Positions 24,126-46,700 of a DNA stretch of 60,714 nt are shown one piece after another. The translations under genes were made by a program, and so were the position numbers. Position 1 is the first letter of the stretch; the number at the start of each line of letters is the position of its first letter. Origin of the DNA: Planctomycetia bacterium (lineage in GTDB: Bacteria; Planctomycetota; Planctomycetia; Pirellulales; UBA1268); assembly GCA_021414115.1 (NCBI GenBank), contig JAIOPD010000089.1:1-60714 (forward strand). Direction: 5' to 3'. The notes under the pieces were generated by a model, which was given only the letters and a program-made list of their open reading frames with translations, did no database searches and was not told the origin of the DNA.

Positions 24126-25454
24126 CTACGGAAGCTTCTTGATGCGGATGTTGCGAAAGGCCACGGAGTCGCTGTGACCGCAGAAGCCAAAAAACCCGCT
24201 CGGGCGATCCTTTCCCGGATGCGGTTTATCGTCCATGAACTCCGTCACGGGCGCGACGTCGGCGTCGAGTACGGTGAAGCCGTTGACTTCCACGGTGATC
24301 GTCGAGCCCTTCACCGTGACGAGCTGGTGGTTCCACTCGCCGATCGGCCGCTGGTAGCCGCCCACTGCTCCCACCATGCCGTAGACCGAGCCGTGCACCT
24401 GCCGCGGGTCGATGCCTTCGTAGCCGTCGTCGAGAATCTGCACTTCAGTCATCCCGAAGCAGGCGGCATTGACGCCGCCGCCCGGATAGCGAATCGCCAG
24501 GCCGTTGTTGCCCTTCGGCGGCATCAGAAACTCGAGCGACACCTGGAAGTTGGCGTATTCCTCGATCGTGTAGATGTTGCCGCTCCCCTTGGGCTTGCAG
24601 CGGATGGCGCCATCGACCACCTCGTAGGCGTCCACCGGGCCCTGCCAGCCGGTGAAATCGCGGCCGTTGAACACGGGCTCGAAGCCCATGCCCTCGTGCT
24701 TGGTCAGCAGCGCATTCGCCTCGACACTGCCGATTTCGCGAATGAAAAGGTTGCGCCAGCGAATCTCGCCGCCGTGCGTCTGGAGCAGGATGCGGCCCTG
24801 CTTGGGCAGTGGCACGGCCGGATTCCAGTAGTTCTTGAGGCGGGCGTGATCGACGACGAGCCTGTCGTTGAGATAGACGGTGGTCCGCTCGCCCACCTGG
24901 ATGATCCGAAACGAGTTCCATTCGCCGAAGGGCTTGTCGGCCCTCACGAGCGGATCCCTGCCGGGCCAGTCGCCGTTGTTGAACAGGCCGCCGCTGCCCG
25001 TGAGGCCGCCAGGGCGCCCGTCGGGATCCTTGCCCGCATCCTCGATCTGCACCTGCGGCGTGTTTCTGATGTAGATGCCGCTGTCGGTCTCGGGCGGAAC
25101 CTTGAATTCGACGAGCAGTTCGCAGTCGCCATACTCCCGGTCGGTGGCGAGATACGCGCCGTGTCCGTCGTTGACGAGTTCGCCATCCTTCACGGACCAA
25201 TGCTGCCGGGCGTCGGCCGTCCAGGCGGCAAATGCCCGCTGCCGCTCTTCGTCCGAAAGCTTTTCCACCTCCGACGGCTTGCCACCCTCGGAGTGGATGG
25301 CCCAGCCGCGCCAGCCGGCGAGGTCTTTGCCATTGAACAAGGGCGTGAATCCGGGCGGTGGCTCGGCAACCGCGGCCCCAGCCATGGAGAGCCACACAGC
25401 CAGAATCGGAGCGAGCCCGTGAAAACGCTGTCGGTTCGGATGTCGAGTGATCAT
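24126..25454 (-). CDS. Double 3-keto-disaccharide hydrolase (DUF1080) domain protein
   Basis: I take the ATG at 25454 (442 aa), which gives a proper signal peptide (FHGLAPILAVWLSMAGAAVA). Two DUF1080 domains follow, each opening with the family signature: FTPLFNGKDLAGWRGW near residue 37 and FEPVFNGRDFTGWQGP near residue 245. The first domain has SGIYIRNTPQVQIEDAG; the second has NNGLAIRYPGGG and GMTEVQILDDGYEGID. This fold is now linked to hydrolysis of 3-keto-glycosides, and planctomycetes have many copies. Both domains retain the sugar-binding-like loops, so either may be active. The product would act outside the cytoplasm. It is divergent from the esterase-like gene with a 144-bp gap. Confidence 0.88.
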   Translation of the reverse strand: MITRHPNRQRFHGLAPILAVWLSMAGAAVAEPPPGFTPLFNGKDLAGWRGWAIHSEGGKPSEVEKLSDEERQRAFAAWTADARQHWSVKDGELVNDGHGAYLATDREYGDCELLVEFKVPPETDSGIYIRNTPQVQIEDAGKDPDGRPGGLTGSGGLFNNGDWPGRDPLVRADKPFGEWNSFRIIQVGERTTVYLNDRLVVDHARLKNYWNPAVPLPKQGRILLQTHGGEIRWRNLFIREIGSVEANALLTKHEGMGFEPVFNGRDFTGWQGPVDAYEVVDGAIRCKPKGSGNIYTIEEYANFQVSLEFLMPPKGNNGLAIRYPGGGVNAACFGMTEVQILDDGYEGIDPRQVHGSVYGMVGAVGGYQRPIGEWNHQLVTVKGSTITVEVNGFTVLDADVAPVTEFMDDKPHPGKDRPSGFFGFCGHSDSVAFRNIRIKKLP

Positions 25455-25598
25455 GGTGCCTATATAGCAGGCGTTCGCGGCGATGCACGATGCGATTGAA
25501 AAAATGAAACGGAGCGTTGCGGGATGGAAAAACGGACAAGTGAGTGGTGGAATGGACCGGGCATCCGACGGGCCGGCCGATGCCGTAGACTCGGCTCC

Positions 25599-27725
25599 AT
25601 GCGAAGGACTCGTACCATCGGCGTTGGATCGTGGGCCGTGATGGCGTTGATCATCTCTGCCGGCTCTTGGCTGGGGGCCGCCGAGCCGGCGGTGGAGTCC
25701 CCCGGCGACGCCCCTCTTGCGGAATATTTCCGCCGTGAAACCGGTGCCTTGCGGGATGCCTGTCTCGACGGCATAGAAACGCTGGGAGACTGGGAGAGCC
25801 ACCGCGGCGAGTATCGCCGCCAGCTCCTGGAGATGCTCGGCCTCGACCCGCTGCCCGCAAAGACGCCACTCGAGCCGATCGTCACGGGCACGGTCGCGCA
25901 CGACGAGTTCACGGTCGAAAATCTGCACTTCCAGTCGCGGCCGGGGCTGTATGTCACCGGCAACCTCTATCTGCCCAAGGGGCAGTCAAAGCCCGCGCCG
26001 GCGATTCTCTATGTCTGCGGCCATGCCCCCGCGAAAAAGGAGGGCATCAGCTACGGCAACAAAACGAAATACCAGCACCATGGGGAGTGGTTCGCTCGGC
26101 ACGGCTACGTCTGCCTGACGATCGACACGCTGCAGTTCGGCGAGATCGAGGGCATCCACCACGGCACGCACCACCTGAACCGGTGGTGGTGGCTGAGCCG
26201 GGGCTACACGCCCGCGGGCGTGGAGGCCTGGAACTGCATCCGGGCCATCGACTACCTCCAGTCGCGGCCCGAGGTCGATCACGAAAAGATCGGCATGACG
26301 GGCCGCAGTGGCGGCGGGGCCTACAGCTGGTGGGCGGCGGCCATCGACGACCGGGTCAAGGCCGCCGTGCCCGTCGCCGGGATCACCGACCTCGAAAATC
26401 ATGTGGTTGACGGCTGCGTCGAAAACCACTGCGACTGCATGTTCGTCGTCAACACGTTTCGCTGGGACTACCCGCTGGTCGCCGCCTTGGTCGCCCCACG
26501 GCCGCTGCTGATTACCAACACCGACAGCGACCGCATCTTTCCGCTCAACGGCATCGTCCGCACCTACGAGAAGGCGAAGCGGATCTACGAGCTTTACGAC
26601 GCAGGCGACAAGATCGGCCTCGCGATCGGCCCCGGCGGGCACCGCGACACGCAGGATCTGCAGGTGCCGGCGCTCCGCTGGTTTGACCGGCATCTCAAGG
26701 GGGAAGACCGCGTCATCGAAACAGCCGCCGTGCCCCTCCTGCCGATGGAGCGGCTGCGGGTGTTTGCCGAGCTGCCGGCCGACCAGATCAATACCCGTAT
26801 CGACGAGCTTTTCGTGCCGGCGGCAAAACCGGCCATGGCTTCCCCCGCCGCTGCCGCGGCCTGGGCGGCCCAGCGCGACGCCTGGCTCGCCGCCCTCCGC
26901 GACAAGACCTTTGGTGGCTGGCCATCGACGCCCGAGCCGCTCGATGTCACGGAGGCCTGGTCGGCCGATCGCGATGGCGTGACGCTCCAGGCCTACGACT
27001 TCACGAGCCAGGGGCCGTTTCGCCTGCGGCTCTACGTCGCCAGTCGCACCGGCCTGGAAAAACCCGAACGCCTTGTGCTCGACGTGCTCGACCAGCAGGG
27101 CTGGAGCGACTTTCTCGGCGCCTACCGAGCGGCTTTCGCCGACACGCTTCCCGCATTGCCGCCGGAAGATACCGCTGCCGGGAAGCCGCCTGCTCTCTCT
27201 TCTGCTGCCTTCGCGGATGCAAAGCAGATGCTCGCGGCCAACGACTGGGCGATCATCTTCGTGGCACCGCGGGGTGTCGGGCCGACGGCCTGGGATCCCC
27301 GACCGAAGAAACAGACCCATATTCGCCGACGCTTTTATCTGCTCGGCCAGACGCTCGAAGGCATGCAGGTGTATGACGTCCGGCGGGCCCTGCAGGCGAT
27401 TCGCACGCTGCCGGGGCAGAGCGAATCCCCGCTGTGGCTCGAGAGCCGGGGCGAGATGGCCGGCGTGGCGGTTTATGCATCGCTCTTCGAGCCGCGGATC
27501 ACCGGCCTCGATCTCTGGAATCTGCCTCGGTCGCATCGCGACGGCCCTGCGCTGCTCAACGTGCAGCAGACGCTCGACATGCCGCAGGCCGTCGCGATGG
27601 CCGCCGAGCGTTCGCAGGTCGTCCTCCATGAGTCGGCAGACAGCCCTTCCGACTGGAAGTATCCACAAGCGGTAACAAAAACGTTGGGGTGGCCCGCCGA
27701 CCGTCTCCGGGTCATGCAGAAGTAA
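25599..27725 (+). CDS. Secreted alpha/beta hydrolase, acetyl-xylan-esterase/dienelactone-hydrolase-like
   Basis: From the ATG at 25599 the protein has 708 aa with a signal peptide (VMALIISAGSWLGAAEP). Residues 70-370 form an alpha/beta hydrolase domain related to AXE1 acetyl esterases. GMTGRSGGGAYSWW carries the nucleophile Ser near residue 236, NTDSDRIFP the acid near 311, and GPGGHRDTQ the His near 348. The C-terminal 340 residues form a second, degenerate hydrolase-like region without an obvious triad. A likely role is removing acetyl or other ester groups from extracellular polysaccharide, fitting the DUF1080 neighbour. GAAAAAATGAAA, a near copy of the recurring word, lies about 95 nt upstream (25498-25509). 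Confidence 0.85.
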   Translation: MRRTRTIGVGSWAVMALIISAGSWLGAAEPAVESPGDAPLAEYFRRETGALRDACLDGIETLGDWESHRGEYRRQLLEMLGLDPLPAKTPLEPIVTGTVAHDEFTVENLHFQSRPGLYVTGNLYLPKGQSKPAPAILYVCGHAPAKKEGISYGNKTKYQHHGEWFARHGYVCLTIDTLQFGEIEGIHHGTHHLNRWWWLSRGYTPAGVEAWNCIRAIDYLQSRPEVDHEKIGMTGRSGGGAYSWWAAAIDDRVKAAVPVAGITDLENHVVDGCVENHCDCMFVVNTFRWDYPLVAALVAPRPLLITNTDSDRIFPLNGIVRTYEKAKRIYELYDAGDKIGLAIGPGGHRDTQDLQVPALRWFDRHLKGEDRVIETAAVPLLPMERLRVFAELPADQINTRIDELFVPAAKPAMASPAAAAAWAAQRDAWLAALRDKTFGGWPSTPEPLDVTEAWSADRDGVTLQAYDFTSQGPFRLRLYVASRTGLEKPERLVLDVLDQQGWSDFLGAYRAAFADTLPALPPEDTAAGKPPALSSAAFADAKQMLAANDWAIIFVAPRGVGPTAWDPRPKKQTHIRRRFYLLGQTLEGMQVYDVRRALQAIRTLPGQSESPLWLESRGEMAGVAVYASLFEPRITGLDLWNLPRSHRDGPALLNVQQTLDMPQAVAMAAERSQVVLHESADSPSDWKYPQAVTKTLGWPADRLRVMQK

Positions 27726-27775: not shown

Positions 27776-30700
27776 CTACCGAAAGACAGTAAATTTGTTC
27801 TGCAAGTGTCGGATCGTCATCGACACGTCCTGGAAGCCCATTACGAAAAGCGGAAATCTCGCCCGCGAGGCAACCGATTCCAGCGCCGGCACGGCCAGCC
27901 GCGAGGCGTTGCCGGCCGCGTCGGTGATCGATGCCCCCGAAGGCAGCGAGATCGGCCGTGGAAGCCTCAGCACTCCGGCCGCCATGTCGCGGCGGAGCAC
28001 CGTGTATTCAAACATCAGCACCTTGCTGCCCGACCCGGCGACATATCGGGCCTGCCGCTTGGCAGTGCCCACGGCAAACTCGAGCACAGGCACGCCCGTC
28101 ACCCGCACAGCCTCCGAAAAGCGGACGGCGAAGACGAGTTTCTGGCCGACTGTGGCGCTCGCGTTGGACGGCACCAGTGCCCAGCCCGTCGGCCTGGGGG
28201 CAGAGGTGTCGATCCGCACGTCACGCGTGTTCACGGCGGGCAGTTTCCTGGAGAAGGCCCTGCCTTCGGGGTCGCGGATGACAGCCTTTCGTGAAAAAGC
28301 CACCAGCGACTGCGCCAAGGTCACGCGCAAGTTGCGAACCGGGGCATCCGCGGCGCGGACCACGTAGACGAACGTCAACTGGTTGGTGCCGGAGCCGCTT
28401 TCATACGTGGCTGCCCGCGCCGACGTGCCGATCATGAGGCGGATCGCCGGCAGGCCCTTCACCGTCATGGGCTGCGTGGCAACCAGGGTGAATCGCAGCA
28501 CGCTGCCCGTTCCATAGAGGCCCGCCGCCGGCTGCCTGATGTGATCGACCGCTGCGGCCTCCGGCCTGTCGATGACGATGATGGTGAATACCTTCACGAC
28601 CGAAAGCCCGCCCGCGTCGGTGGACCGGACGCGGACCGAATAACTGGACCGGAGCTCGAAATTAAAAGTCTGGGCAGACAACAGTTTGCTGCCACTGATC
28701 GAGAAGGCCGCGTTGTCGGCGTCGCCTTCTCCCGAGACGAGCGTGTAGGTGAACGTGTCGTCGACGTTGGCATCGCTCGTGGAAAGGATCCCGACCAGAG
28801 TCCCGACAGCATCGTTCTCGGCGATCGTGTTCGCAGAGAGGGCGATATCGGTCGGCGACTCGTTGGCGTCGGTCACCCTGACCGTCAAGGCGTAGCTGCC
28901 GCTGCCATCACCCCACGATGAGGCGGTGATCGTATATGTCCCGCTGGTGGGGGCGACGACGACGATGCGGGCATTGCGTCCGTCGGCTCCACTGGTGTCG
29001 TCGGCCGCCAGCAGGCCGCCATTCACGCCGAAGACATCCAGCTTCATGTCTGGGGAGTCTCTGAGCGACGGGATATCCCCGGCGGGGGTCAGCGTCTCGA
29101 CGGTGAGGGACTGTCCAGCTGTCAGGAAGATGCTGTACGTATCGACATCAGGGGCTGCGGTCTGGCCGCCGACGGCAGCGGGCCGGCCTAGGTGGCCGAG
29201 CACCGTGTCGCCCGCATTCACGGCCTGGGCCGCGGCGTCGTTGTCTTCGATCTCCAAGCGGCCGTCGGCCACGATCACCAGGCTGTAATCGCCAGCCTGG
29301 GCGCCCGTCACCTCCACGCGGTAGCTGCCCGCCACGACTGGCCCGAAGCCGTCAATCGCGGCGGCGAGGTCGGCCGTCGGGGAGCCGACGGCCACGACCG
29401 CCCCGTTTGCATCCATCACCCGGAGGGTGAGCCCCGCAGTCCCGGCGACCGCGAACGATGCCCGTCCGGCGGGCAGGGCCACGAGGTAGTTGTCGACGTC
29501 GTCGCCGGTCGCGGAGGAGACCACGATGTCGTCCCAGCCCCGGCCACCGAACGGGAGGGTTCCCAGGCCGTAGTACTGGAACTTGATGAGACAGTCGGCG
29601 CCGAGCGTGATTCCTGCCTCTGCGGCGGCGGCGGAGAGGTCGACGGTGTGGCGTCCCCAGGCGGCCTCGTCGCCCGTGGCATCCCAGATCGGGTACCAGG
29701 TGACGCCGTCGGCGCTGATGGCGACGCCGTCGGCCTCGGCATGGTCGGTGAACTCGCCGGCGAACGGGTTGTCTTGGTCGCCAAAGTTTCGATGCGAGAA
29801 CCCGAGGCTCACGCCGGAGCGACCGGAGAGATCGACCTTCAAGACGGCCTCGACGAGGCCGAGATCCTCGGCATCCGGGTCCGAATCCATCACCAGCAGG
29901 AAATTCCCCGCCGCGGCGGGCTGCTCGCCGCTCACGCGCGCCCGTTCGTACGGGCCCGACGTGGAGGTCGCCCACGCGCCGCCCAGGCTGCCGGCCTCGA
30001 AGCCCTCGGTGACAAGCGGGCTCATGCTCGGCGAAATCCGCCCCGCCACGGCGACGCGTGTCGCGGAACCGACGGTGACGAGTGAGGTCCCGAGCGGCTG
30101 GGCAGCGGCCGGCAGATCGTTGGAGGCCCCGCCGGTGCTCTCCGCCTCGACGTCCGCGCCGAGCGTGACGATCGTGCTTGCGATCCCCGTCGTACCACCG
30201 ACACCGCTGAACCGCAGCGTGCACGCGCCACCACCCGTGGTGACGGCCAGCGGGGCGATGACGATCGGCTGGCCGGGCCCGGCCGCAGTGAACGTGCCGA
30301 GCGGTTCGCCATACGGATCGAGCACCGTGACCGAGGCCCGCAACAGCCTGCTCGTCTCGATGATGGCGGAGATCGTGGTGACGCCGGAGCCGATCTCGAT
30401 GAACACCTCATCAACGTCGTCCGCGGAGCCGATCACCGTTTGGTGGGCCGCGGCGGAGCGATAGACGAGCCCGCCGAGCGGTGCGACCGTGGTGAGGCCG
30501 CCGAGGAGCGTCGCGTCGCCGTCCACCGAAAACGGAATCGTCAGGTACCCACCAGCGGACCCGTTGCCGTCGCCATCCAGTTGGTTGCCGACGAGGTCGC
30601 GCAGGCCATTGGCGCTGGCGGACACATACAAGACGTACGCGTCCTCCGGCACCGCCGCGAAGGTCAGGGTGATGACGGTGCGATCCGACGCATCCGTCGT

Positions 30701-33700
30701 CACGGCGACTGCGGCGGGCAGCGCTGTCGTGCCGGACAGCGTTCCCGAAAGCGAGAAATCGTTCTTGTCGATCAGGCTCTCATCCAGCAACTCGCTGAAG
30801 GTGAGCGTGATCGGGACGGAGAGGCCCGCTTTAGGCAGCACCGCGGCCGGCACGATCGACGACTCCACCAGCGTGGGCGGGGTGAGATCGAGCGTGAACC
30901 CCATGGCGAACGCGTCGTTCGGCACGCCGCCGACGCTTTGCACTTCGCCCGCGGCGAGTTCCACCGTGTGCGGGCCTTCCGTGAAGAGCGGAGAAAGCGT
31001 GAACGTCAGCGTGCGATCGTCGACGATGGTCACGTCCGCCGCGGGCTCTCCATCGATCAGCAGATCCGTCGCGTCCACGGTCGAGAGCAGCAGGCTCGAG
31101 CCGAACGTGAGCGTCACCTGCGGGGCCGCCATGAACACCCCGCCGTCGGCGGGCGTGTGCGACACGACCGTGAACGCCGCCGGCCCGCCTGTGGCTCCCG
31201 TCACCCCGAGCAGATATTCACCCGTGCCGGCAGCGGCGGTCACCCGCACCCGGTAGAGGCCGGTCTGATCCGCGAAGTGCCGGATCAGGACGTTGCGGCC
31301 ATCGGCGGCGCTGTTGTCGTCGAAGTCGACCAGCGTTCCGTCGGGGGCGAAGAGTTCCACCTGCGGATCGAGCAGGTTGACGAACTCGCCCACGCCGTCG
31401 CCGGGAGTGAGCGTCGTGATCTCGAGCTGGTCGCCGGCCGTCACAGGCACGGAGTAGAAGTCTTCGGTATCGAGCGCCCGCAGCACCTTCTCGGCGTTGA
31501 GCCGGCCACCGGTGACGGTCTTGCCCGCGAGGGCAGGGAGGTGATCGACGTTGTCGAGCAGCAGCGCCTTGAGGTCGGCGACGCCGAGATTCGGGGCTCT
31601 GGCCAGGGCAAGGGCCGCGACGCCCGAGACCTGGGGCGCCGCCATGCTCGTGCCGTTCTTGATGCCGTAGGCATTGCCGGGAAGCGTGCTGAGGATGTCG
31701 TCGCCCGGAGCCGCCAGATCGACCGTCGTCGCCCCGTAGTTGCTGTACGAGGCGAGACTGTCGGTGTTGTCCGTCGCCGCCACGCTCAGGATGAACGGGG
31801 AGTCGTAGTTCGTGGGATAGACGGGCCAGGCATCGTTGTCGCTGCGGCTGTTGCCGGCCGCGGCGACGAAGAGGATTCCCGCTTCACCGCCGGCGTTGAT
31901 CGCATCGAGGAGCCCCTGATCGAATTTGTCGCCGCCCCAGCTGTTGTTCGTGATCCCCACGTTCACGCCGTACATCGACCGCATCATCGTGGCGTAGTTC
32001 ACTGCCTGGATCGCAGCGGCAGTGTCGCCCGTTCCCGCGGCGTTCATGAACTTGAGCGCCATGAGCGAGACCTGCCAGGCGACGCCCGTCACGCCGATGC
32101 CGTTGTTGCCGACGGCGCCGATCGTTCCGGCAACGTGCGTGCCGTGGCCGTCGTCGTCCCAGGGGTCGCCGTCGCCGTTGATGAAGTCGTAGCCGTGGAC
32201 GTCGTCGACGAAGCCGTTGCCGTCGTTGTCGATGCCGTCGTTCGCGAACTCGCCGGACTCGCCGGGGTTGGTCCAGATGTTGCCGACGAGGTCTTGGTGC
32301 GTGTAGTCGATTCCCGAATCGATCACTGCGACGACCACCGAACGGGAGCCCGTCGTGTATTGCCAGGCTTCGGGGGCGTCGATGTCGGCGTCAGGCGTGC
32401 CGCCGTTTTGGCCGATGTTGTCGAGGCCGTAGAGCTCGCCGAACCGCGGATCGTTGGCGACGGCGGCCCGGCGGACCACGCGATTGGGCTCCGCGTAGGC
32501 CACGCCGCGAATCCCATGGAGGTAGCTCCGCACCTCGGCGTCGCCGCTGCCGGCACGCACGAGAAGCTGCCCCGGCAGCCCGAGGCCGCGGACCACCTCG
32601 AGGCCGAGATGCTGGTCGTCGAGAAAGGCCGCCGCCTCGGCGACCGTCCGCACGGTTTCCAGCGTCGTTGCAGAAAGCCGGACGATCCACTCGCCCCGAC
32701 CAGAGGCCAGGCCCGTGGTCTGGCCGGCAGCCTGTTCCGCTGCGGGCCGCAGCGACTGGAACCATATCGGCGCGGGCGCGGATCCTGTTCCCGGCAGGGG
32801 AGCCGCGGCCGCCTGCAATGGGCCGACTGCAGCAACCGGGAGGGTGGCCACGTGGCCAAACACGGCGTAGCCCGCTGCTGCGGAGCCGGCGAGCGGCCGT
32901 GCCGCGTCGGATGATTCGTTGTAGCGATCCTCCAACACCGCGTTACGGGTCACGACGAGCTTGTACGCACCGCTGCCGGCGGCCGAGACGACGAGGAAGT
33001 AGGTCCCGGTGGCCGACGCCACCAACGGCTCGAGCACCGCGTCGAAGCCGACGGTCGGCCGGCCCTGCGCCAGCAGGGTGCCCGCGGCGTCGCGAAGCGC
33101 CAGCGTGACGTTGCTCGATGTCTCGGCAACCGCCGCCGACAACGTCATGCCCGCATCGAGCGTGAGCGAATACCAGTCGGCGTCCGTCGCCGACGGGCCG
33201 CCCGCCAGCGGGCCCTGACCGAGAACCGTGACAATCGCCGCGGAGCCGACCGCCACGAAGGCCGAATCGAGCGACTGTGCACGGGCCTTGTCGTCGTTGG
33301 CCGGCCCACCGACAGCCTCCGCCTCCGGCGCGGCGTTGAGGGACAGCTGCAGCGAGTACTTCACCGCTTCGGAGACACGCAGCGCAGCGACGCCGTCATC
33401 CAAGCGGGAGATGGTCACCGTCCACGTCCCGGCGGACGTGACCGGGATTGATCCGAGCGAGACGGCCGCTCCGACCGATGCCGAATCGCCCTCGACGACG
33501 ACCGTACCCGTGGGATCCTGCACCCGCACCCGCAGACCGACGGCCGCGCCGGATAGCGCGGTGGCGACGATGGAGAGCGTCTGGCCGGCATCGAGCGTGA
33601 TCGTGAAGGAGTCTTCGTCGAGCGAGTCGCCCAGAAATCCGGTGCGGGTTGCACCGTAGGCCAGACTGCCAAGGGGGCCAATCGGTGCGAGCGGCGACGG

Positions 33701-35845
33701 GAAGGGAACGGAGACCACGTCGAGCATCACCGCCAGAGTGTGCGGCTGCGACGGATTGCCAAACTCGTCCTCGAGGGCGCCCGCGCGGAGCGTGACCTCG
33801 AGCGGCCCCTCGTCCGGCACGCCGGCGAGCACGTATCGCACCGTGTCATCCCCGACGACCGAGAACCCGGTGACGGTGCCGCTGGAGAGGATCAGGTCGT
33901 CCTTTCCGGCCGAGGCGGGATCAAAGGCCTCGTTCAACGTGAACTCGATGACCGTGAGCGGTACGCTGACGGTGGAGGCATCCGCGGGCGTCGTGCTGAC
34001 GACCGCCATCGGCAGGGCGTCATACCTGAAGTCTGCGCTGTACGGCAGCGACGCCGCGCCGTCGGCCAACCGCGTGAGCACTCCCGCCGCCATGCTGATC
34101 GTCTGCCGCCCCTGCGACGTCACGGGGCTCGTCGTGAACCGAAAGGTGATCGCTGTGGCCGACACGATATCAAACGAGTCGGCCGGAACGCCGTTGACGG
34201 TGAAGTCGTCGGCTGCGACGGTCGCCTCATCAAAGGCTTCGTTGAACGTCACCGTGAATTCGCTCGGCGGCGTCGTGACCACGTCGCCGCTCGCCGGCGT
34301 CGTGGCGACCGGCGCGAGGCCGCTGGCCTGCACGGCGCGGCCCACATTGAGCCGTCCGCCGGTCACGATGAGATCCTTGAGCGAGTCGAGCGGATCGACC
34401 GTGGCGAGGAGCAGGCTCTTGAGTTCGGCGACGGTGAGGTTGGGTGCGGCGGCGACGGCAAGTGCCGCCGCACCGGCGACGTAGGGCGCCGCCATGCTCG
34501 TGCCACTCAGCGTGCCGTAGCGGTTGCCCGGCAGCGTGCTCAGGATGTTCACCCCGGGTGCCGCGAGGTCGACCGTCGTCGGGCCGATGTTGCTGAACGG
34601 GGCGATCGCGTCGGCGTCGTCCGTCGCCGCCACGCTGACGATGGCGGACGATTCGTAGGACGACGGATAGTCGGCGATCTGGTCGATGTCGGTGGTGTCG
34701 TTGCCGGCCGCCGCGACGAAGAGGATTCCCGCGTCGCCGCCGGCATTGATCGCGTCGAGCAGGCCGTCATTGCGGAGCGCCCCGCCCCAGCTGTTGTTCG
34801 TCACGCGGACGTTCACATCGTAGATCGTCCGCATCATGGTGGCGTAGTTCACCGCGGCGATCGCGTCGGAGGTCAATCCGCTCCCACCGGCGTCGGTGAA
34901 CTTGAGCGCCATGAGCGAGACCTGCCAGGCGACGCCCACCACGCCGATGCCGTTGTTGCCGACGGCGCCGATCGTGCCGGCCACGTGCGTGCCGTGACCA
35001 TCGTCGTCCATCGGGTCGCTGTCATTATTGAAGAAGTCGTAGCCGTGGACGTCGTCGACGAAGCCATTTTCGTCATTGTCGATGCCGTCACCCGCTATCT
35101 CGCCGGGGTTGGTCCAGATGTTGCCGACCAAGTCCTCATGCGTGTAATCGATTCCCGAATCGATCACGGCGACGACGACCGAGGAGGAGCCCGTCGTGTA
35201 TCGCCAGGCTTCGGGAGCGTCGATGGCGGCGTCCGCAGTGCCGCCGGTCTGGCCCGTGTTGTCGAGGCCGTAGAGCTCTCCATACCGCGGATCGTTCGGC
35301 AGGGCGGCCCGCTGAATGATGCTGTTGGGCTCCGCGTAGGCCACCCCAGGGATGCCGCGCAGATAACTCCGGACATCGCCAGCGGCGGCGTTGGCCCGCA
35401 CGAGAAGCTGCCCCGGCAGGCCCAGGCCGCGAACCACCTCGAGGCCCGGCCCCTGGTGGTTGAGGTACTGCGCGGCCTCGCCGACGGTCCGCACCGTTTC
35501 CAGCGTCGTCTTCGAGAGCCGCACGATCCATTCGCCGGGCAACGCCGCAGGCCCAGCCGACTGAGGCACGATCGACGCCGTGGAATAACCGGACGAGACG
35601 ATCGTGGGCTGCCGAACGGAGGCGGCGACCGATTGAAACCAAGCCGACGTCGCCGTGACGTATTGGGAGTCGTCAGCGAGCGGCGGCGTGACCGAGAGCA
35701 GATGCCGCTGCTCGAGCCCCTCGAGCGACAAGGCCGCGATGGCCCCCGGCCGCGGACCGCCTGCCGACCGGGTCTGGCGACCCTTTGTCCGCCCTCGACG
35801 CTCCCGGTAGCGCTTCGTCCATGAAGACCAGGATTTCCGAGGCAT
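27776..35845 (-). CDS. Giant exported protein with two complete subtilisin (S8) modules
   Basis: The 2689-aa protein opens with a basic region and LEGLEQRHLLS near residue 42, a variant of the planctomycete LEPR-XLL N-terminal signature. Two S8 protease units follow, each with an inhibitor-I9-like propeptide (GEWIVRLS...). Unit 1 has triad positions near Asp228 (VIDSGIDYTH), His284 (DGHGTHVAGT) and Ser447 (SGTSMAAP), with oxyanion VTNNSWGG. Unit 2 repeats them near Asp1178, His1235 and Ser1398. Between and after them are Big-5-like Ig domains (TTPADASTVSVP), pre-peptidase C-terminal domains, and a cadherin-like domain with SPTDIALSANTIAEND near residue 2330. Both proteases look intact. Surface-bound proteolysis is inferred. 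The near copy GAAAAAGAAA (minus strand) lies about 90 nt upstream. Confidence 0.9.
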   Translation of the reverse strand: MPRKSWSSWTKRYRERRGRTKGRQTRSAGGPRPGAIAALSLEGLEQRHLLSVTPPLADDSQYVTATSAWFQSVAASVRQPTIVSSGYSTASIVPQSAGPAALPGEWIVRLSKTTLETVRTVGEAAQYLNHQGPGLEVVRGLGLPGQLLVRANAAAGDVRSYLRGIPGVAYAEPNSIIQRAALPNDPRYGELYGLDNTGQTGGTADAAIDAPEAWRYTTGSSSVVVAVIDSGIDYTHEDLVGNIWTNPGEIAGDGIDNDENGFVDDVHGYDFFNNDSDPMDDDGHGTHVAGTIGAVGNNGIGVVGVAWQVSLMALKFTDAGGSGLTSDAIAAVNYATMMRTIYDVNVRVTNNSWGGALRNDGLLDAINAGGDAGILFVAAAGNDTTDIDQIADYPSSYESSAIVSVAATDDADAIAPFSNIGPTTVDLAAPGVNILSTLPGNRYGTLSGTSMAAPYVAGAAALAVAAAPNLTVAELKSLLLATVDPLDSLKDLIVTGGRLNVGRAVQASGLAPVATTPASGDVVTTPPSEFTVTFNEAFDEATVAADDFTVNGVPADSFDIVSATAITFRFTTSPVTSQGRQTISMAAGVLTRLADGAASLPYSADFRYDALPMAVVSTTPADASTVSVPLTVIEFTLNEAFDPASAGKDDLILSSGTVTGFSVVGDDTVRYVLAGVPDEGPLEVTLRAGALEDEFGNPSQPHTLAVMLDVVSVPFPSPLAPIGPLGSLAYGATRTGFLGDSLDEDSFTITLDAGQTLSIVATALSGAAVGLRVRVQDPTGTVVVEGDSASVGAAVSLGSIPVTSAGTWTVTISRLDDGVAALRVSEAVKYSLQLSLNAAPEAEAVGGPANDDKARAQSLDSAFVAVGSAAIVTVLGQGPLAGGPSATDADWYSLTLDAGMTLSAAVAETSSNVTLALRDAAGTLLAQGRPTVGFDAVLEPLVASATGTYFLVVSAAGSGAYKLVVTRNAVLEDRYNESSDAARPLAGSAAAGYAVFGHVATLPVAAVGPLQAAAAPLPGTGSAPAPIWFQSLRPAAEQAAGQTTGLASGRGEWIVRLSATTLETVRTVAEAAAFLDDQHLGLEVVRGLGLPGQLLVRAGSGDAEVRSYLHGIRGVAYAEPNRVVRRAAVANDPRFGELYGLDNIGQNGGTPDADIDAPEAWQYTTGSRSVVVAVIDSGIDYTHQDLVGNIWTNPGESGEFANDGIDNDGNGFVDDVHGYDFINGDGDPWDDDGHGTHVAGTIGAVGNNGIGVTGVAWQVSLMALKFMNAAGTGDTAAAIQAVNYATMMRSMYGVNVGITNNSWGGDKFDQGLLDAINAGGEAGILFVAAAGNSRSDNDAWPVYPTNYDSPFILSVAATDNTDSLASYSNYGATTVDLAAPGDDILSTLPGNAYGIKNGTSMAAPQVSGVAALALARAPNLGVADLKALLLDNVDHLPALAGKTVTGGRLNAEKVLRALDTEDFYSVPVTAGDQLEITTLTPGDGVGEFVNLLDPQVELFAPDGTLVDFDDNSAADGRNVLIRHFADQTGLYRVRVTAAAGTGEYLLGVTGATGGPAAFTVVSHTPADGGVFMAAPQVTLTFGSSLLLSTVDATDLLIDGEPAADVTIVDDRTLTFTLSPLFTEGPHTVELAAGEVQSVGGVPNDAFAMGFTLDLTPPTLVESSIVPAAVLPKAGLSVPITLTFSELLDESLIDKNDFSLSGTLSGTTALPAAVAVTTDASDRTVITLTFAAVPEDAYVLYVSASANGLRDLVGNQLDGDGNGSAGGYLTIPFSVDGDATLLGGLTTVAPLGGLVYRSAAAHQTVIGSADDVDEVFIEIGSGVTTISAIIETSRLLRASVTVLDPYGEPLGTFTAAGPGQPIVIAPLAVTTGGGACTLRFSGVGGTTGIASTIVTLGADVEAESTGGASNDLPAAAQPLGTSLVTVGSATRVAVAGRISPSMSPLVTEGFEAGSLGGAWATSTSGPYERARVSGEQPAAAGNFLLVMDSDPDAEDLGLVEAVLKVDLSGRSGVSLGFSHRNFGDQDNPFAGEFTDHAEADGVAISADGVTWYPIWDATGDEAAWGRHTVDLSAAAAEAGITLGADCLIKFQYYGLGTLPFGGRGWDDIVVSSATGDDVDNYLVALPAGRASFAVAGTAGLTLRVMDANGAVVAVGSPTADLAAAIDGFGPVVAGSYRVEVTGAQAGDYSLVIVADGRLEIEDNDAAAQAVNAGDTVLGHLGRPAAVGGQTAAPDVDTYSIFLTAGQSLTVETLTPAGDIPSLRDSPDMKLDVFGVNGGLLAADDTSGADGRNARIVVVAPTSGTYTITASSWGDGSGSYALTVRVTDANESPTDIALSANTIAENDAVGTLVGILSTSDANVDDTFTYTLVSGEGDADNAAFSISGSKLLSAQTFNFELRSSYSVRVRSTDAGGLSVVKVFTIIVIDRPEAAAVDHIRQPAAGLYGTGSVLRFTLVATQPMTVKGLPAIRLMIGTSARAATYESGSGTNQLTFVYVVRAADAPVRNLRVTLAQSLVAFSRKAVIRDPEGRAFSRKLPAVNTRDVRIDTSAPRPTGWALVPSNASATVGQKLVFAVRFSEAVRVTGVPVLEFAVGTAKRQARYVAGSGSKVLMFEYTVLRRDMAAGVLRLPRPISLPSGASITDAAGNASRLAVPALESVASRARFPLFVMGFQDVSMTIRHLQNKFTVFR
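31490..32700 (-). repeat. Second copy of the propeptide-subtilisin module (coding repeat)
   Basis: This roughly 1.2-kb segment encodes propeptide plus S8 domain and is closely similar in DNA and protein to 34340-35545. For example, the GVAWQVSLMALKF and GEWIVRLS regions are nearly identical in both. The bounds are estimated from where the protein similarity starts and stops. Confidence 0.8.
34340..35545 (-). repeat. First copy of the propeptide-subtilisin module (coding repeat)
   Basis: Partner of 31490-32700 inside the giant protein gene. Both copies are about 1.2 kb long and retain all triad residues, indicating tandem duplication of the whole propeptide-protease unit. Bounds approximate. 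Confidence 0.8.
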
Positions 35846-36071: not shown

Positions 36072-37271
36072 TTACAGCTTCACTTGCGATACGGCGAACA
36101 CGTGCGACGAGCCGGCGAGCCGAGCGAGCGTGTCATCGGCCAGTTCGCCCACGGTGGAGATCCGGGCACAGGCGGCATGACCGCCCGAGAAGATGATGTT
36201 TTGCATCGTCTCCACGTTGATGTCGGCCTCCCGGAGGATGGCCAACACACCCGCGAGCACGCCCACCTTGTCGGCGTGGCGGATCACGAGCTGATGCGTC
36301 GCCGGAGTGCGGGTGGCGAGGTTCACGCAGTTGGGGATCGCGCTGCCGGCATGGTAAGCGGCCACGATCTCCACCACCGCCGCGCCCACGGCCTCCTCCG
36401 ACTGGTCGGTCGAGGCGCCGATGTGGTGCGTGCCGTAGACGGCCGGGGAGTCGACGAGCGGATCGGCGAACGTGCCGGTCGCGGTCGTGGGCTCCTTGGC
36501 AAACACGTCGAGCCCCACCCGGAGCTGCTTATCGGTGACAGCACGCAGCAACGCCTCCTCGTCGACGACCTCGGCCCGGGCCGTGTTGATGAAGAAGGCT
36601 CCGGGCTTCATCGCCGCGAAAACTGCTGCGCCGACGAACCCGCGGGTTTCTGGCGAAAGCGCCAGATGCACGCTCACTGCATCGGCGTTCGCCACAGCGG
36701 CCTCCGGCGACTCCGCACGCTCGACACCGAGCGCAGCGGCAGCCGCCGGGGTGAGCGACCGCGACCAGGCCACGATCTTCATGCCGAACGCCCGGGCCCG
36801 AGTGATCGTCTCCTGACCGATCTGGCCCACGCCCAAGACGGCGAGCGTGCGGCCAAAGAGCCCCCGCGCCGCGCCGAACTGCTTCTTGTCCCAGCGGTGC
36901 TCCCGCAGGGCCGCCACGTTGTCGGCGATCCGGCGGTCGAGGTTGATCAGGTGGCCGATCGCCAGTTCGGCGACAGCGATCGCGTTTTTGCCCGGGCAAT
37001 TCGCCACATAGACCCCGCGAGCGGAGGCCGCGGCCAGGTCGATCGTGTTGACGCCCGCCCCGGCGCGGATGACCAGCGCGAGTGCGCGGCCCGCCTCGAT
37101 GTCGGCGGCGGTGACCTTCGTGCTGCGAACGATCAAAACCTCGGGATTGCGATCGGCGATCGCGCGGGTGAGCGCCGCATCCTTCGCGGCGGTATCGACG
37201 GTGACTGTTCCGAATGCTGACAACTCGCGAACCACCGCGGGCGCGAGTTTATCGACGACGAGAATCTGCAT
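36072..37271 (-). CDS. serA: D-3-phosphoglycerate dehydrogenase-like 2-hydroxyacid dehydrogenase with ACT domain
   Basis: The 399-aa enzyme has the D-2-hydroxyacid dehydrogenase fold. VIRAGAGVNTIDL and NCPGKNAIAVAEL form the substrate-binding region, LGVGQIGQETI is the NAD loop near residue 155, and NTARAEVVDE, the late Glu in FAKEP and HHIGASTDQSEEA follow, the latter carrying the catalytic His. The last 80 residues form an ACT domain (HADKVGVLAGVLAILREADINVETMQN), typical of SerA, where serine binding gives feedback control. It would oxidise 3-phosphoglycerate in serine synthesis. It stands alone, leftward; a palindrome lies just before its start. Other hydroxyacid dehydrogenases have the same fold, but the ACT domain favours SerA. 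Confidence 0.88.
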   Translation of the reverse strand: MQILVVDKLAPAVVRELSAFGTVTVDTAAKDAALTRAIADRNPEVLIVRSTKVTAADIEAGRALALVIRAGAGVNTIDLAAASARGVYVANCPGKNAIAVAELAIGHLINLDRRIADNVAALREHRWDKKQFGAARGLFGRTLAVLGVGQIGQETITRARAFGMKIVAWSRSLTPAAAAALGVERAESPEAAVANADAVSVHLALSPETRGFVGAAVFAAMKPGAFFINTARAEVVDEEALLRAVTDKQLRVGLDVFAKEPTTATGTFADPLVDSPAVYGTHHIGASTDQSEEAVGAAVVEIVAAYHAGSAIPNCVNLATRTPATHQLVIRHADKVGVLAGVLAILREADINVETMQNIIFSGGHAACARISTVGELADDTLARLAGSSHVFAVSQVKL

Positions 37272-41323: not shown

Positions 41324-42076
41324 ATGTTTCCAATCGATCTTGCGGGCAAAACAGCGGTGGTGACAGGGGGCGGCCAGGGCCTGGGCCGGGCCGCAGCGCA
41401 GACGCTCCACGACGCCGGAGCGAATCTGGTCATCAACTATGTTCCAGATGCCGACGGCACCAACCGCGCGAAGGCCGAGCAGACCGCCACGGAACTCGGG
41501 CCCCAGGCGGTGGCGTTCCCGGCCGATGTCCGCGACCCCGCGGCACTCGCCGGCTTGCTCGACCAAACGATCGATCGCTTCGGCGGCCTCGACATTCTCG
41601 TCAACAACGCCGGGATCCTGCGGGACCGCACGGTGCGGAAGATGTCTGCGGCGGAATGGCAGGACGTGATCGACATAAACCTCACCGGCACGTTCAACGC
41701 CTGCCAGGCGGCCGCGGAGCGGCTGCGAGACGGCGGTCGAATCGTGAACGTCGCCTCGCTCGCCGCGTTTGTGGGCTTCTTCGGCCAGGCCAACTACGCC
41801 GCTTCGAAGGCGGGCGTCGTGGGCCTCACGAGGGTTCTGGCCCGTGAACTCGCCAAACGCAGCATCACCGTCAACGCCATCGCTCCGGGCGTCGTGCTCA
41901 CCGAAATGGGCAGGTCGATTCCGGAGGAGACTCGGGCAACGATGCTGGCAAGCATTCCGTTGGGCCGGTTCGGCGAGCCCAGCGAGGTCGCCGAGGCCGT
42001 GCTCTTCCTCGCGAGCCCGATGGCGTCGTACATCACCGGCCAGACACTGCATGTCAACGGAGGCTGGTGGGGATGA
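41324..42076 (+). CDS. Short-chain dehydrogenase/reductase (SDR), FabG-like
   Basis: From the ATG at 41324 the protein has 250 aa, the standard SDR size. All classical motifs are present: VVTGGGQGLG for NAD(P) binding near residue 10, NNAGI, a Ser in VASLAAFVG, YAASKAG with catalytic Tyr and Lys, and the C-terminal ASYITGQTLHVNGGWWG. It would oxidise or reduce a hydroxyacyl, hydroxy or keto substrate. Its position ahead of an acyl-CoA carboxylase subunit and an AtuA-type protein recalls the SDR genes (atuB, atuG) of acyclic-terpene clusters, but SDR specificity cannot be told from sequence. The next gene begins 137 bases downstream. Confidence 0.88.
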   Translation: MFPIDLAGKTAVVTGGGQGLGRAAAQTLHDAGANLVINYVPDADGTNRAKAEQTATELGPQAVAFPADVRDPAALAGLLDQTIDRFGGLDILVNNAGILRDRTVRKMSAAEWQDVIDINLTGTFNACQAAAERLRDGGRIVNVASLAAFVGFFGQANYAASKAGVVGLTRVLARELAKRSITVNAIAPGVVLTEMGRSIPEETRATMLASIPLGRFGEPSEVAEAVLFLASPMASYITGQTLHVNGGWWG

Positions 42077-42212
42077 CCGGCTCCACGTTCGAGACCAATC
42101 CGGCAGCGGATGGCTCATGTCCTTGCCAGCAATCGGCAGTAGCCGCAGAATCCTGTTCTTTCGTCCGGCTGCGGATCACGGTGAGCCGACGACGCCTTTG
42201 GGGAAACCAAGC

Positions 42213-43799
42213 ATGCCCACGCTCCGCGAAGTGACCGAATCGACTGTCCGCGACGAGAACACCCTGCGCCAGGGGGGCGGCAAGGCGGGCTGGGAGCGGC
42301 AGAAAAAACTCGGCCGCCTGCCCGTTCGCGAACGCCTCGAACTTTTGCTCGACCCGGGAGCACCCTTTCTCGAACTCGGCCTCTGGGCCGCGTGGAAGAT
42401 GTATCCGGAGTGGGGTGACGTGCCCGCGGCCGGCATCGTCACGGGCATCGGCACGATCAGCGGACGGCCCTGCCTCGTCGCCGCCAACGACGCGACGGTC
42501 AAAGCTGGCGCGATGTTCCCACAGTCGGTCAAGAAGCTCATCCGCGTCCAGAAGATCGCTCACCTGCTCCGACTGCCGCTGGTCTACCTCGTCGACTCGG
42601 CGGGTGTGTTTCTGCCGCTGCAGGCCGAGATCTTTCCAGACGAGGACGACTTCGGCCGGATCTTCCGCAACAACTCCGTGCTCTCGGCCGAGGGGATCCC
42701 GCAGTACGCGGCGGTCATGGGCAACTGCATCGCCGGCGGCGCCTACATGCCGGTGCTTTGCGACAAGATTCTCATGACCGAGGGCAGCTCGCTGTGCCTG
42801 GCAGGGCCGGCGCTCGTGAAGGCGGCGGTCGGACAGACCGTCGATCCCGAGGAACTCGGCGGTGCCGCGATGCACTCGAGTGTGAGCGGCACCGTCGACT
42901 TCCGTGAGCCGAACGACCAGGCCTGCCTGGCCCGGTTGCGGTCGCTCGTGGCGCTGCTGCCCGACCCTGGCGTGGCCGCGGCCGGAAAGCCGCCCGAGCG
43001 AGCCGTCGAAGACGTGTATGACCTCGTCCCCGCCGACGGCCGCGGGGAATACGAGATCCGCGACGTGCTGAAGGCGATCGTTGACCGGGATAGCCTGCAG
43101 GAGTTTCGGCCCGAACACGGACGGACGCTCGTCACGGCCTACGTGCGGATCGACGGCCGACCGGCGGGCGTGGTGGCCAACGCGCGGAAGCGGGCCCAGA
43201 CAGCCGAAGGGGAGGTGCAGATCGGCGGCGTGCTCTACGGCGACGCGGCTGAAAAGGCGGCGCGGTTCGTGGACGACTGCGATCAGAACCGGGTGCCGCT
43301 CATCTTCATTCAGGACGTGCAGGGCTTCATGGTCGGCAGGCAGGCTGAGCAGTCGGGCATCATCCGCTCGGGCGCAGAGCTCGTTCGGGCGATGAGCATC
43401 GCCACGGTGCCCAAGTTCACGGTGATCGTCGGCAGTTCCTACGGTGCCGGGCATTATGCGATGTGTGGTCGGGCCTACGATCCTGCGCTGATCCTCGCCT
43501 GGCCCAACGCCCGCTATGCCGTGATGGGAGGCAATCAGGCGGCCGACACGCTGCTCTCCCTGCGGATCCGCGATGCGGAGAAGTCGGGCAAGCCGCTCGC
43601 GGAGCGGGAGGTCGCCGAGCTCCGCGACGCGGTCCGCAGCTCGTACGCGGAGGAGACCGACATCCGCTACGGCGCCGCCCGGGGCTGGGTCGACGCAATC
43701 ATTCCGCCGCACGAGACGCGGATGTGGCTGGCGGCGGCGCTGGCCACGATCAGACCCGAGGATCTCCGCCATCCGCCCGGCATCGCGAGGTACGTGTGA
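42213..43799 (+). CDS. Acyl-CoA carboxylase beta (carboxyltransferase) subunit
   Basis: The ATG at 42213 gives 528 aa, the size of methylcrotonyl-, geranyl- and propionyl-CoA carboxylase beta subunits. Both halves of the carboxyltransferase fold are visible: AGIVTGIGTISGRPCLVAAN and AGGAYMPVLCDKILM, GPALVKAAVGQ in the N-half; FIQDVQGFMVGRQAEQSGII, VGSSYGAGHYAMCGRAYDP and WPNARYAVMGGNQAADTL in the C-half. AtuC/LiuB-type enzymes are the closest by memory, matching the AtuA neighbour. A beta subunit needs a biotin-carboxylase/biotin-carrier alpha subunit, absent from this window. Its stop overlaps the next start (GTGA), so it is coupled to the AtuA fusion gene. Confidence 0.9.
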   Translation: MPTLREVTESTVRDENTLRQGGGKAGWERQKKLGRLPVRERLELLLDPGAPFLELGLWAAWKMYPEWGDVPAAGIVTGIGTISGRPCLVAANDATVKAGAMFPQSVKKLIRVQKIAHLLRLPLVYLVDSAGVFLPLQAEIFPDEDDFGRIFRNNSVLSAEGIPQYAAVMGNCIAGGAYMPVLCDKILMTEGSSLCLAGPALVKAAVGQTVDPEELGGAAMHSSVSGTVDFREPNDQACLARLRSLVALLPDPGVAAAGKPPERAVEDVYDLVPADGRGEYEIRDVLKAIVDRDSLQEFRPEHGRTLVTAYVRIDGRPAGVVANARKRAQTAEGEVQIGGVLYGDAAEKAARFVDDCDQNRVPLIFIQDVQGFMVGRQAEQSGIIRSGAELVRAMSIATVPKFTVIVGSSYGAGHYAMCGRAYDPALILAWPNARYAVMGGNQAADTLLSLRIRDAEKSGKPLAEREVAELRDAVRSSYAEETDIRYGAARGWVDAIIPPHETRMWLAAALATIRPEDLRHPPGIARYV

Positions 43800-46700
43800 A
43801 AGATTTCATCAGGATCGGCAACGCGCAGGCCTTCTGGGGAGACCGGCCCTCGGCCGCACGGGATCTGCTCCGTCAGGAGCCAGACCTCGACTTTCTCACG
43901 ATGGACTACCTCGCCGAGGTGTCGATGTCGATCCTCGCCAGCCAGCGGGAGAAGGATCCGCGGCTCGGCTACGCGCGGGACTTCGTCGAAGTAACGCGGT
44001 CGCTGGCCGATTACTGGGCCACGGGCGGCCGCTGCCGCCTGATCGTCAACGCGGGCGGCCTCAATCCCGCCGGCTGCGCCGCCGCCTGCCGGGCGGCGCT
44101 CGAGGAGGCCGGTTGCCGGCCGCTCGTGATCGGCGTCGTCTCCGGTGACGACGTGCTCGAGGAACTTCAGCGCAACACGCCGGCGGGTGACGTGCATGCA
44201 AACCTCGACTCCGGCGAGCCGCTCCGGCTGTTCGCGGATCGACTCGTGACGGCCAACGCCTACATGAGCGCGGCTGGGATCGTGGAGGCGCTCGACCGCG
44301 GCGCCGACATCGTGATCACCGGCCGCGTGGCCGACCCATCACTCGTGGTGGCGGCCTGCCGGCACGCCTTCGGCTGGCGGCCTGACGAGTGGGACAAGCT
44401 GGCAGGCGCGACGGTGGCAGGCCACCTGCTCGAATGTGGAACGCAGGTCACCGGCGGCATCTCCACCGACTGGCTCGACGTGCCCGACCCGGCGCATATC
44501 GCGTTTCCCGTGGCGGAGGTGGACCGACACGGAGCGTGCGTGGTGACGAAGTCCGCCGCGGCCGGCGGCTGGGTCACACCCGCGACCGTGAAGGAGCAAC
44601 TCGTCTACGAGATCGGCGATCCCGCGCGGTACGTGAGCCCGGATGTCAGCGTGTCGTTCCTCGGCCTCGAGATCGCAGAGGTCGGCCACGACCGGGTGCA
44701 TGTACGTGGGGCACAGGGCGGTCCACCGCCCGCCACGCTCAAGGTGAGCGCGACCTTGCGTGATGGCTTCCGCGCCGCCGGAATGCTCACGATCTTCGGG
44801 CCAGACTCGGCCGCCAAGGCGCGGCGGTGCGGGACGATCGTGCTCGACCGGCTGCGCGAGGCCGGCTGCGTCTACCGTGACACGGTCGTCGAGTGCCTCG
44901 GCCGGGCTGACAGCGTGCCTGTCGTGCCGCCGGCGGTCCGCGGAGAGGATGGACTGGAGACAGTGCTGCGGATCGCGGTCGAAGGGGCGTCGCGAAGCGA
45001 CGTCGAGGCGTTCACCCGCGAACTCATGCCGCTGGTCACGGCCGGCCCACAGGGCACCACTGGCTACGCCGAGGGAAGGCCGCGGGTACATCCGGTGTTT
45101 CGCTACTGGCCCTGCCTCGTCGATGCCCGGCGAGTCGTGCCGCTGGTCGAAACCTTCGCCACCACCGATACGCGGGCCGGACGCGCGGCTGCCCCATCGT
45201 GGCCCGTCTCGCCTGCGGCCGGAACCATGGCTCCCGCACCGCGACCGGCCCGAGCGCGGGTTTCACCGGCGGAGGCAGCCACCCTCGCTGACGTCGCCCA
45301 TGGACGCAGCGGCGACAAGGGCACCGGCGCGAATATAGGCATCCTCGTTCGCAATCCAGCCGACTATCCCTGGCTGGTCGAGTGGCTCACGGCCGAGCGC
45401 GTCCAGGAATACTTCGCCTCTCGCGGCGTCACGTCCGTCGAGCGGCACGAACTTCCCAACCTCGGTGGGCTGAACTTTGTGATCCGCGGCATCCTCCGCC
45501 GCGGCCTACGGAACGATGCTCAGGGCAAGGCGCTCGCCCAGGCGGTCTTGGCGATGCCGCTTCGCAGCCGTCCGCTGGTCGATGCGGGGGCGGCACCGGA
45601 TTCTGCCGCGGTTCGAGACGAAGACATGCCCTGGGTCGAGGGACTCACGATCGGGCAGGTGCTCCGCGCGACGAGCCGCCGCGTGCCCGACCGGCTGGCG
45701 GTCTCCTTCCCGAGCCTCGGGCTGCGGATGACCTGGGCCGAGTTCGACCGCGAGGTCGATCGCGTGGCCCGGGCCCTGTTGGCGGCGGGCTTTCGTCGTG
45801 GCGATCACTTCGGTGTCTGGTCCACCAACGTGCCCGAGTGGGTGCTGCTCCAGTTCGCGACCGCCCGGGTCGGCATGGTGCTCGTAACGGTAAACCCAGC
45901 GTATCGTCCCGCTGAACTGGCCTTCGTGCTCGAGCAGGCCGATATCAAGGGACTCGCGGTCATCGACCGCTTCAAGACGACCGACTACCACGCCATCCTC
46001 CGCGAGGTCGTGCCCGAAATGGCCGCCGCCGGCCCGGATGGAATCGCGAGCACGGCGTTTCCGCGGCTCCAGACGGTGGTCTCGCTCCGCGGTGATACGC
46101 CGCCGGGGACCATCTCCTGGGAGGCGTTTCTGGCCGCCGCCGATGAGGTGTCGCCGGAGTGGTTTGCGGACGCGGAGGCCGAGGCATCGTGCCACGATCC
46201 GGTGAACGTCCAGTTCACGTCCGGCACCACCGGCACCCCCAAGGGCGCGACGCTCTCCCATCGCAACATCCTCGTCAACGCCTTCTACGCGGGCGTCAAC
46301 CAGCGATTCACGTCCCGCGATGCCCTGTGCATCCCGGTGCCGCTCTATCACTGCTTCGGCTGCGTGCTGGGGTCGCTATGCGCCGTCGTCCACGGGGTCG
46401 CGATGGTATTTCCCGGAGAAGGCTTCCAGCCCGACGCGACGCTGCGGGCCATCGAGGCGGAGCGGTGCACGGCAGTCTATGGCGTGCCCACGATGTTCAT
46501 CGCGCTGCTCGAGCACCCCGACTATTCCCGCAGCGACCTCCGCTCCCTGCGGACCGGCATGATGGCCGGCAGCCCTTGCCCGGTGGAGCTGATGAAGCGG
46601 GTGACCGGCGAGATGGGGGCCAAGGAGATGACGATCGGCTACGGGCAGACCGAGGCCTCCCCGCTCATCACGCAGACCCGCACCGACGATCCCCTCGAAC

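Follow-up and report, generated by a model that had tools for sequence, protein, structure and literature searches.

Two sister propeptide-subtilase cassettes in a giant planctomycete protein and their probable origin and maturation

Two complete propeptide-subtilisin units, both belonging to the S8 family, lie within a single giant protein of a Planctomycetia bacterium of the order Pirellulales (GenBank assembly GCA_021414115.1, contig JAIOPD010000089.1, positions 1 to 60,714; this whole stretch of 60,714 nucleotides is referred to here as the window). The protein is best explained, with a probability of about 0.58, as a multidomain subtilase, secreted or borne on the surface, with a protease cassette that was copied or converted, units that each mature on their own and active sites whose P1 preferences have drifted. 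Nearly all of the subtilase frames examined have one catalytic domain, and while tandem subtilases and polyserases are already known, the new feature is the presence of two intact sister S8 cassettes in one chain. Such a chain may yield two enzymes, each with its own activation segment. With one cassette in the middle of the chain, it is also a natural test case for the folding and release of a protease by its propeptide from such a position.

Domain organization of the protein

The gene is a single uninterrupted open reading frame at positions 27776-35845 on the minus strand, as are all parts of it described below, with an ATG start and 2689 codons for amino acids. A Pfam scan of the protein gave two Peptidase_S8, four PPC and four Big_5 stretches and no match to P_proprotein or PKD; the S8 stretches (PF00082) score 204 and 183 bits against a cut-off of 21.8. 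The N-terminal region (aa 1-60, 35666-35845) consists of a basic stretch followed by LEGLEQRHLLS, which by eye resembles the surface-sorting motif of planctomycetes. In the scan of these 60 residues no family was found at E ≤ 1, the surface signal PF07595 (Planctomycete extracellular motif) included, and this family was matched near the N-terminus of some relatives, in keeping with the planctomycete look of the genome. A signal of the PF07595 type is credited to Studholme et al. 2004 in an excerpt of PMC8567305.

The first unit (aa 104-505, 34331-35536) is composed of a propeptide (aa 104-183, 35297-35536) and a catalytic domain (aa 184-505, 34331-35296) with D229, H284, N382 and S450. It is followed by linker 1 (aa 506-889, 33178-34330), which contains Big_5/CopC-like and other beta domains and belongs to a clan of linkers that follow S8 domains in relatives, and by a further beta region (aa 890-1027, 32765-33177; weak Lc1-type match at aa 886-1001) that reaches the second cassette. 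This begins with a WFQS stretch and propeptide 2 (together aa 1028-1130, 32456-32764; propeptide core aa 1051-1130) and continues into the second catalytic domain (aa 1131-1455, 31481-32455) with D1176, H1234, N1332 and S1400, so that unit 2 proper spans aa 1051-1455 (31481-32695). The WFQS stretch is common to both units (aa 69 and 1028). Each motif occurs once per unit, with residue numbers derived from the motif positions, and the Asp/His/Ser triad and the oxyanion Asn are present in both rows of the S8 alignment. The preliminary description of two full propeptide-subtilisin units is thus borne out, and the coordinates it had given (34340-35545 and 31490-32700) agree with ours to about 10 nt.

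Behind unit 2 lie a PPC domain (aa 1460-1545, 31211-31468; best PF04151 stretch 1461-1537) and linker 2 (aa 1557-1959, 29969-31177), a Big_5 pair plus a beta domain from a clan that is not adjacent to S8 in relatives. A block that we label jelly-roll-like (aa 2005-2120, 29486-29833) was recognized with a home-made profile, bears no Pfam name and also occurs in relatives L031 and L097. The chain continues with another PPC domain (aa 2235-2318, 28892-29143), a cadherin-like block (aa 2335-2430, 28556-28843; PF00028 at 15.4 bits, below the cut-off of 28.8, with a counterpart in the congener L036 at 67.5) and a C-terminal beta region (aa 2436-2680, 27806-28540), which was modelled from the window alone and aligns in part to L036.

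Divergence of the units and age of the copy

The units are 77.7% identical in DNA and 73.4% in protein over 402 aligned codons, in keeping with the high DNA similarity first noted for them. Comparing their synonymous sites and the gene with itself, as had been proposed, gave a Nei-Gojobori dS of 0.52 (dN 0.195) and similarity that is confined to the two units, with none over the linkers. The same codon is used at 223 of the 295 identical residues, where 150.5 would be expected if the choices were independent, and the synonymous similarity is therefore well beyond chance. DNA identity in 40-codon windows ranges from 63 to 89%, with no patch of near-identity.

As a clock, rpoB was used, since the neighbouring SerA gene is unmatched in 21 congeners; 21 of 22 genomes had an rpoB match. 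The dS of rpoB between this genome and 18 congener loci is 0.50-0.95, with 0.50 for the nearest congener. The dS between the units is close to this last value, which argues that the copy event was not very recent, and its age appears to be of about the same order as the split from the nearest congener. Of the recent duplication or gene conversion suggested at the outset, the duplication or conversion stands, for the cassette only (see the trees below), and the recency does not; a very recent duplication is not supported at 22% DNA difference. The SerA-like 2-hydroxyacid dehydrogenase itself (36072-37271, minus strand) has no match at E ≤ 1e-60 in 21 congeneric genomes and was possibly acquired or replaced.

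Rarity of the arrangement

The complete PF00082 listing of 72 genomes of the family (59 with a match at 1e-25) contains no other frame with two S8 hits. Among the matches listed for genomes of the order, a batch of 50 contained two double-S8 frames, both from genome G148, and in a batch of 56 none was visible by eye; the listing of 396 genomes holds best matches only. Only three S8-bearing frames in the fetched stretches have two S8 domains, namely the window gene and the two G148 frames, L093 (4227 aa) and L094 (3262 aa). The units of the latter are only 22% and 27% identical, so that these frames are fusions of different S8 lineages, and their beta-helix or FG-GAP tails differ from those of the window protein. 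A scan of genome contigs gave one weak locus and no useful relative. Among the papers listed on tandem S8 proteins, PMC6795024 included, none was seen to describe tandem active S8 cassettes; another listed paper concerns Plasmodium Sub1. The parts are familiar, and the arrangement of two sister cassettes looks rare.

Other S8 loci deserve mention in their own right. Contig 1 of genome G388 has a tandem array of giant S8-bearing frames (about 34.6-66.3 kb), four of them in succession on the same strand and each of 3164-3513 aa; two adjoining S8 genes with an equal score of 205.7 bits (G336, contig 147, 8437-14032) probably represent a recent gene duplication; and in L044 (G022, contig 13) an in-frame TGA breaks the S8 gene.

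Origin of the second cassette

Relatives were collected by searching 60 genomes (our own included), 44 of which had a match at 1e-30, and by taking 20 and then 12 further stretches. The S8 tree comprises 59 rows, that is, 65 domain rows minus six that are partial or distant, with nine redundant loci omitted beforehand. In this tree the two units are sisters (support 100/98), and the pair adjoins the single-S8 congener L036 (96/71). The linkers tell a different history: in a tree of 15 rows, linkers 1 and 2 fall into separate clans, each with support 100/100, of which the former is made up of linkers directly behind S8 in relatives and of L034_a, whose frame lacks an S8, and the latter of modules not directly behind S8. 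Forcing the two together is 57 log units worse (p-AU 5e-5), and by this test and the linker tree a tandem duplication of the whole module, S8 plus linker, is rejected. The linkers behind the two units thus belong to two old, separate clans. In addition, L031/G047 has the same PPC-Lc2-jelly-roll-PPC order as that behind unit 2, without an S8 domain in front.

The two clans and this S8-less block suggest that the protease cassette was copied or converted into an existing chain, and the trees support a duplication or conversion limited to the cassette, which starts with the WFQS stretch and closes with S8. Judging from sequence and trees, a site about 950 residues further along the chain, preceding an already existing PPC-Big5-jelly-roll-PPC block, came to hold a complete propeptide-S8 cassette, either as a copy of the N-terminal one or through conversion to its sequence. 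The gene also shows a catalytic cassette moving inside such giant surface proteins of bacteria independently of the linkers, whose history stays separate.

How the second site came to hold an S8 domain admits another, somewhat less favoured account, in which the chain already had a second S8 in its middle that was later overwritten by conversion from unit 1, with no new insertion. This is drawn from L032, a frame from another family of the order, in which a PPC domain 55% identical to that behind unit 2 comes after a mid-chain S8 and which aligns collinearly with aa 513-1831 of the two-protease protein, and because of it both insertion and conversion are retained as readings. However, the S8-less state of the same block in L031, the single S8 of the congener L036 and the lack of a near-identity patch between the units all speak against overwriting. 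Far less credible is a chimera, that is, two separate subtilase genes, from one strain or two, joined during metagenome assembly. The source is a draft in 144 contigs and the double gene is known from this one genome, yet both units are complete within one open frame and differ by 22% in DNA, and a junction would have to sit in the linker. Moreover, the units have no exact stretch in common that is longer than 41 nt, and no direct repeat in the window exceeds this length. Elsewhere in the genome the gene is matched over short stretches only, at 68-81% DNA identity (68-72% for the longer ones); the longest of these matches covers about 720 nt of another S8 gene at 72%. These short and diverged matches make a repeat artefact unlikely, and the collapsed or expanded assembly repeat considered in the preliminary description finds no support.

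Propeptides and maturation

The propeptide block, a candidate for the I9-like inhibitory or chaperone fold of S8 propeptides, is common to 23 relatives, including its WIV start and EP end. It stays below every Pfam cut-off, with a weak Fervidolysin_NPro-like match (E 0.04), and its profile gave weak matches against the PDB (E 0.2 and 1.1). AlphaFold models of the units made from two-row input are poor (mean pLDDT 33.1 and 36.1), and in both of them the propeptide follows the order strand-helix-strand-strand-helix-strand (pLDDT about 50-70). The closest solved catalytic domain is that of deseasin MCP-01 (PDB 3vv3; 1.9e-108), whose chain starts a few residues before NDPR. From this register and the alignment of the 23 relatives, the propeptide junctions are predicted near R179 in unit 1 (cleavage at about aa 179-183) and near R1126 in unit 2 (about aa 1126-1130), and the NDP junction of each unit resembles that of single-S8 relatives.

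The propeptides of the two units differ by a dN of 0.197 at a dS of 0.66. The ratio of propeptide to catalytic dN is 0.97 between the units; in the other 54 of the 55 pairs among 11 sequences it is 1.41-4.27, the propeptide being the less conserved part. Since the propeptide is as conserved between the units as the catalytic domain, propeptide 2 is not decaying; the catalytic domains have perhaps diverged more than usual. By analogy with subtilisins and from the MCP-01 register, it is most likely that both propeptides act within their own units, each folding the catalytic domain there and being cut off at its own NDP junction. If the chain is cut at the second of these junctions, two products would result: a protease and its linker from the N-terminal part, and a protease bearing PPC and other domains of the binding type from the C-terminal part. 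In light of known subtilisin biology and the conservation of propeptide 2, autoprocessing of the chain into a pair of active proteases is plausible.

The dN/dS between the units is about 0.4, and in some pairs of relatives with similar dS it is about 0.03-0.06. The pairs of the units with the single-S8 congener L036 are equally high (0.28/0.74 and 0.286/0.61); as the high ratio is common to this relative, it is not ascribed to specialization after copying, and we make no claim that such specialization drove the fast divergence of the catalytic domains. A possible functional difference lies at the base of the S1 pocket, at the position that we take, from the GYP/YP motif, to be equivalent to residue 166 of subtilisin BPN'. 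This position is Asp in unit 1 (D392) and Val in unit 2 (V1342), residues found in 0 and 2, respectively, of the 49 relatives (out of 53) in which the motif was located. In engineered subtilisin, acidic residues at position 166 favour a basic P1. To judge from this one position, the P1 preferences of the two active sites have probably diverged.

Separation of the two enzymes is not forced by anything in the sequence, and both domains might instead be active within one chain, with propeptide 2 nicked and still bound, or cut without separation; the result would be a two-headed protease in which the beta domains hold the parts together. There are precedents in human polyserase-3 and polyserase-2, which keep two and three protease domains in one chain according to the portion of PMC1435904 available. 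This arrangement is nevertheless unlikely here, because each unit has its own propeptide and NDP junction like those of single-S8 relatives, and a mid-chain cut would follow if unit 2 matures as subtilisins do. The Asp of unit 1 and the known effect of acidic residues give rise to a more speculative idea, which we rate as improbable, of a cascade within one chain: unit 1 would prefer a basic P1, cut after Arg-Arg (about R1126) and release unit 2. The first enzyme would thus switch on, within one and the same chain, a second one of different specificity and with its own PPC-type binding tail. Slightly more doubtful still is the idea that one of the units is turning into a pseudoprotease, or into a domain with a structural or sensory role, as seen in CspBA. 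At sites where the units differ from each other, unit 1 deviates at 12 and unit 2 at 9 from residues that at least 75% of 53 relatives conserve, but the departures are similar in number, and the triads and oxyanion Asn are intact in both. Each unit has the appearance of an intact enzyme, with no sign of decay in either. The preferred reading remains that of two proteases which mature separately.

Comparison with known systems

MCP-01, an S8 collagenolytic protease of Pseudoalteromonas sp. SM9913, resembles the window protein in its NDPR start and in having C-terminal extension domains. It has one S8 domain, whereas the window protein combines two with PPC and Big_5 domains and lacks the P-proprotein and PKD domains of a deseasin. 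According to an excerpt of PMC11294657, P-proprotein and PKD domains form the C-terminus of MCP-01, and in several collagenolytic proteases of bacteria the PPC and PKD domains are collagen-binding. It is a reasonable guess by analogy that the tails of the window protein bind some insoluble substrate.

CspBA of Clostridioides difficile likewise has two subtilisin-like domains in one polypeptide; the triad of its CspA part is lost, and a separate protease, YabG, cuts the fusion apart (PMC12880746, in the part available). In contrast, the window protein has both triads intact, its units are sisters and its chain is multidomain, and it scores 70.6 bits with the NCBIfam CspBA model NF040809, far below the cut-off of 1250. 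Polyserases are animal proteins with the trypsin-like S1 fold, which is unrelated to S8, and although polyserases 1-3 also have several serine-protease domains per chain, the likeness is one of analogy only. Both outcomes occur among the human members, as the protease domains of polyserase-1 are released and those of polyserase-2 and polyserase-3 are kept in one chain (PMC1435904, same portion).

Closer at hand are the giant extracellular proteins of the same order with a single S8 domain (L031, L036, L032, L037 and L041), which belong to the same S8 subfamily, several with Big_5, PPC or cadherin-like tails and some with S8 in mid-chain; the G148 frames, from the same order, share two S8 domains in one giant frame. 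In the giant single-S8 frames L032, L037, L041, L098 and L099, the protease and a propeptide-like block lie mid-chain, from hundreds to more than 2000 residues in.

Other genes of the window

An open reading frame at 24126-25928 on the minus strand has two 3-keto-disaccharide hydrolase stretches. On the plus strand, a 1276-aa frame at 43463-47293 carries AtuA (acyclic terpene utilisation) and AMP-binding enzyme domains, apparently as a fusion, and adjoins a carboxyl-transferase gene at 41769-43799.
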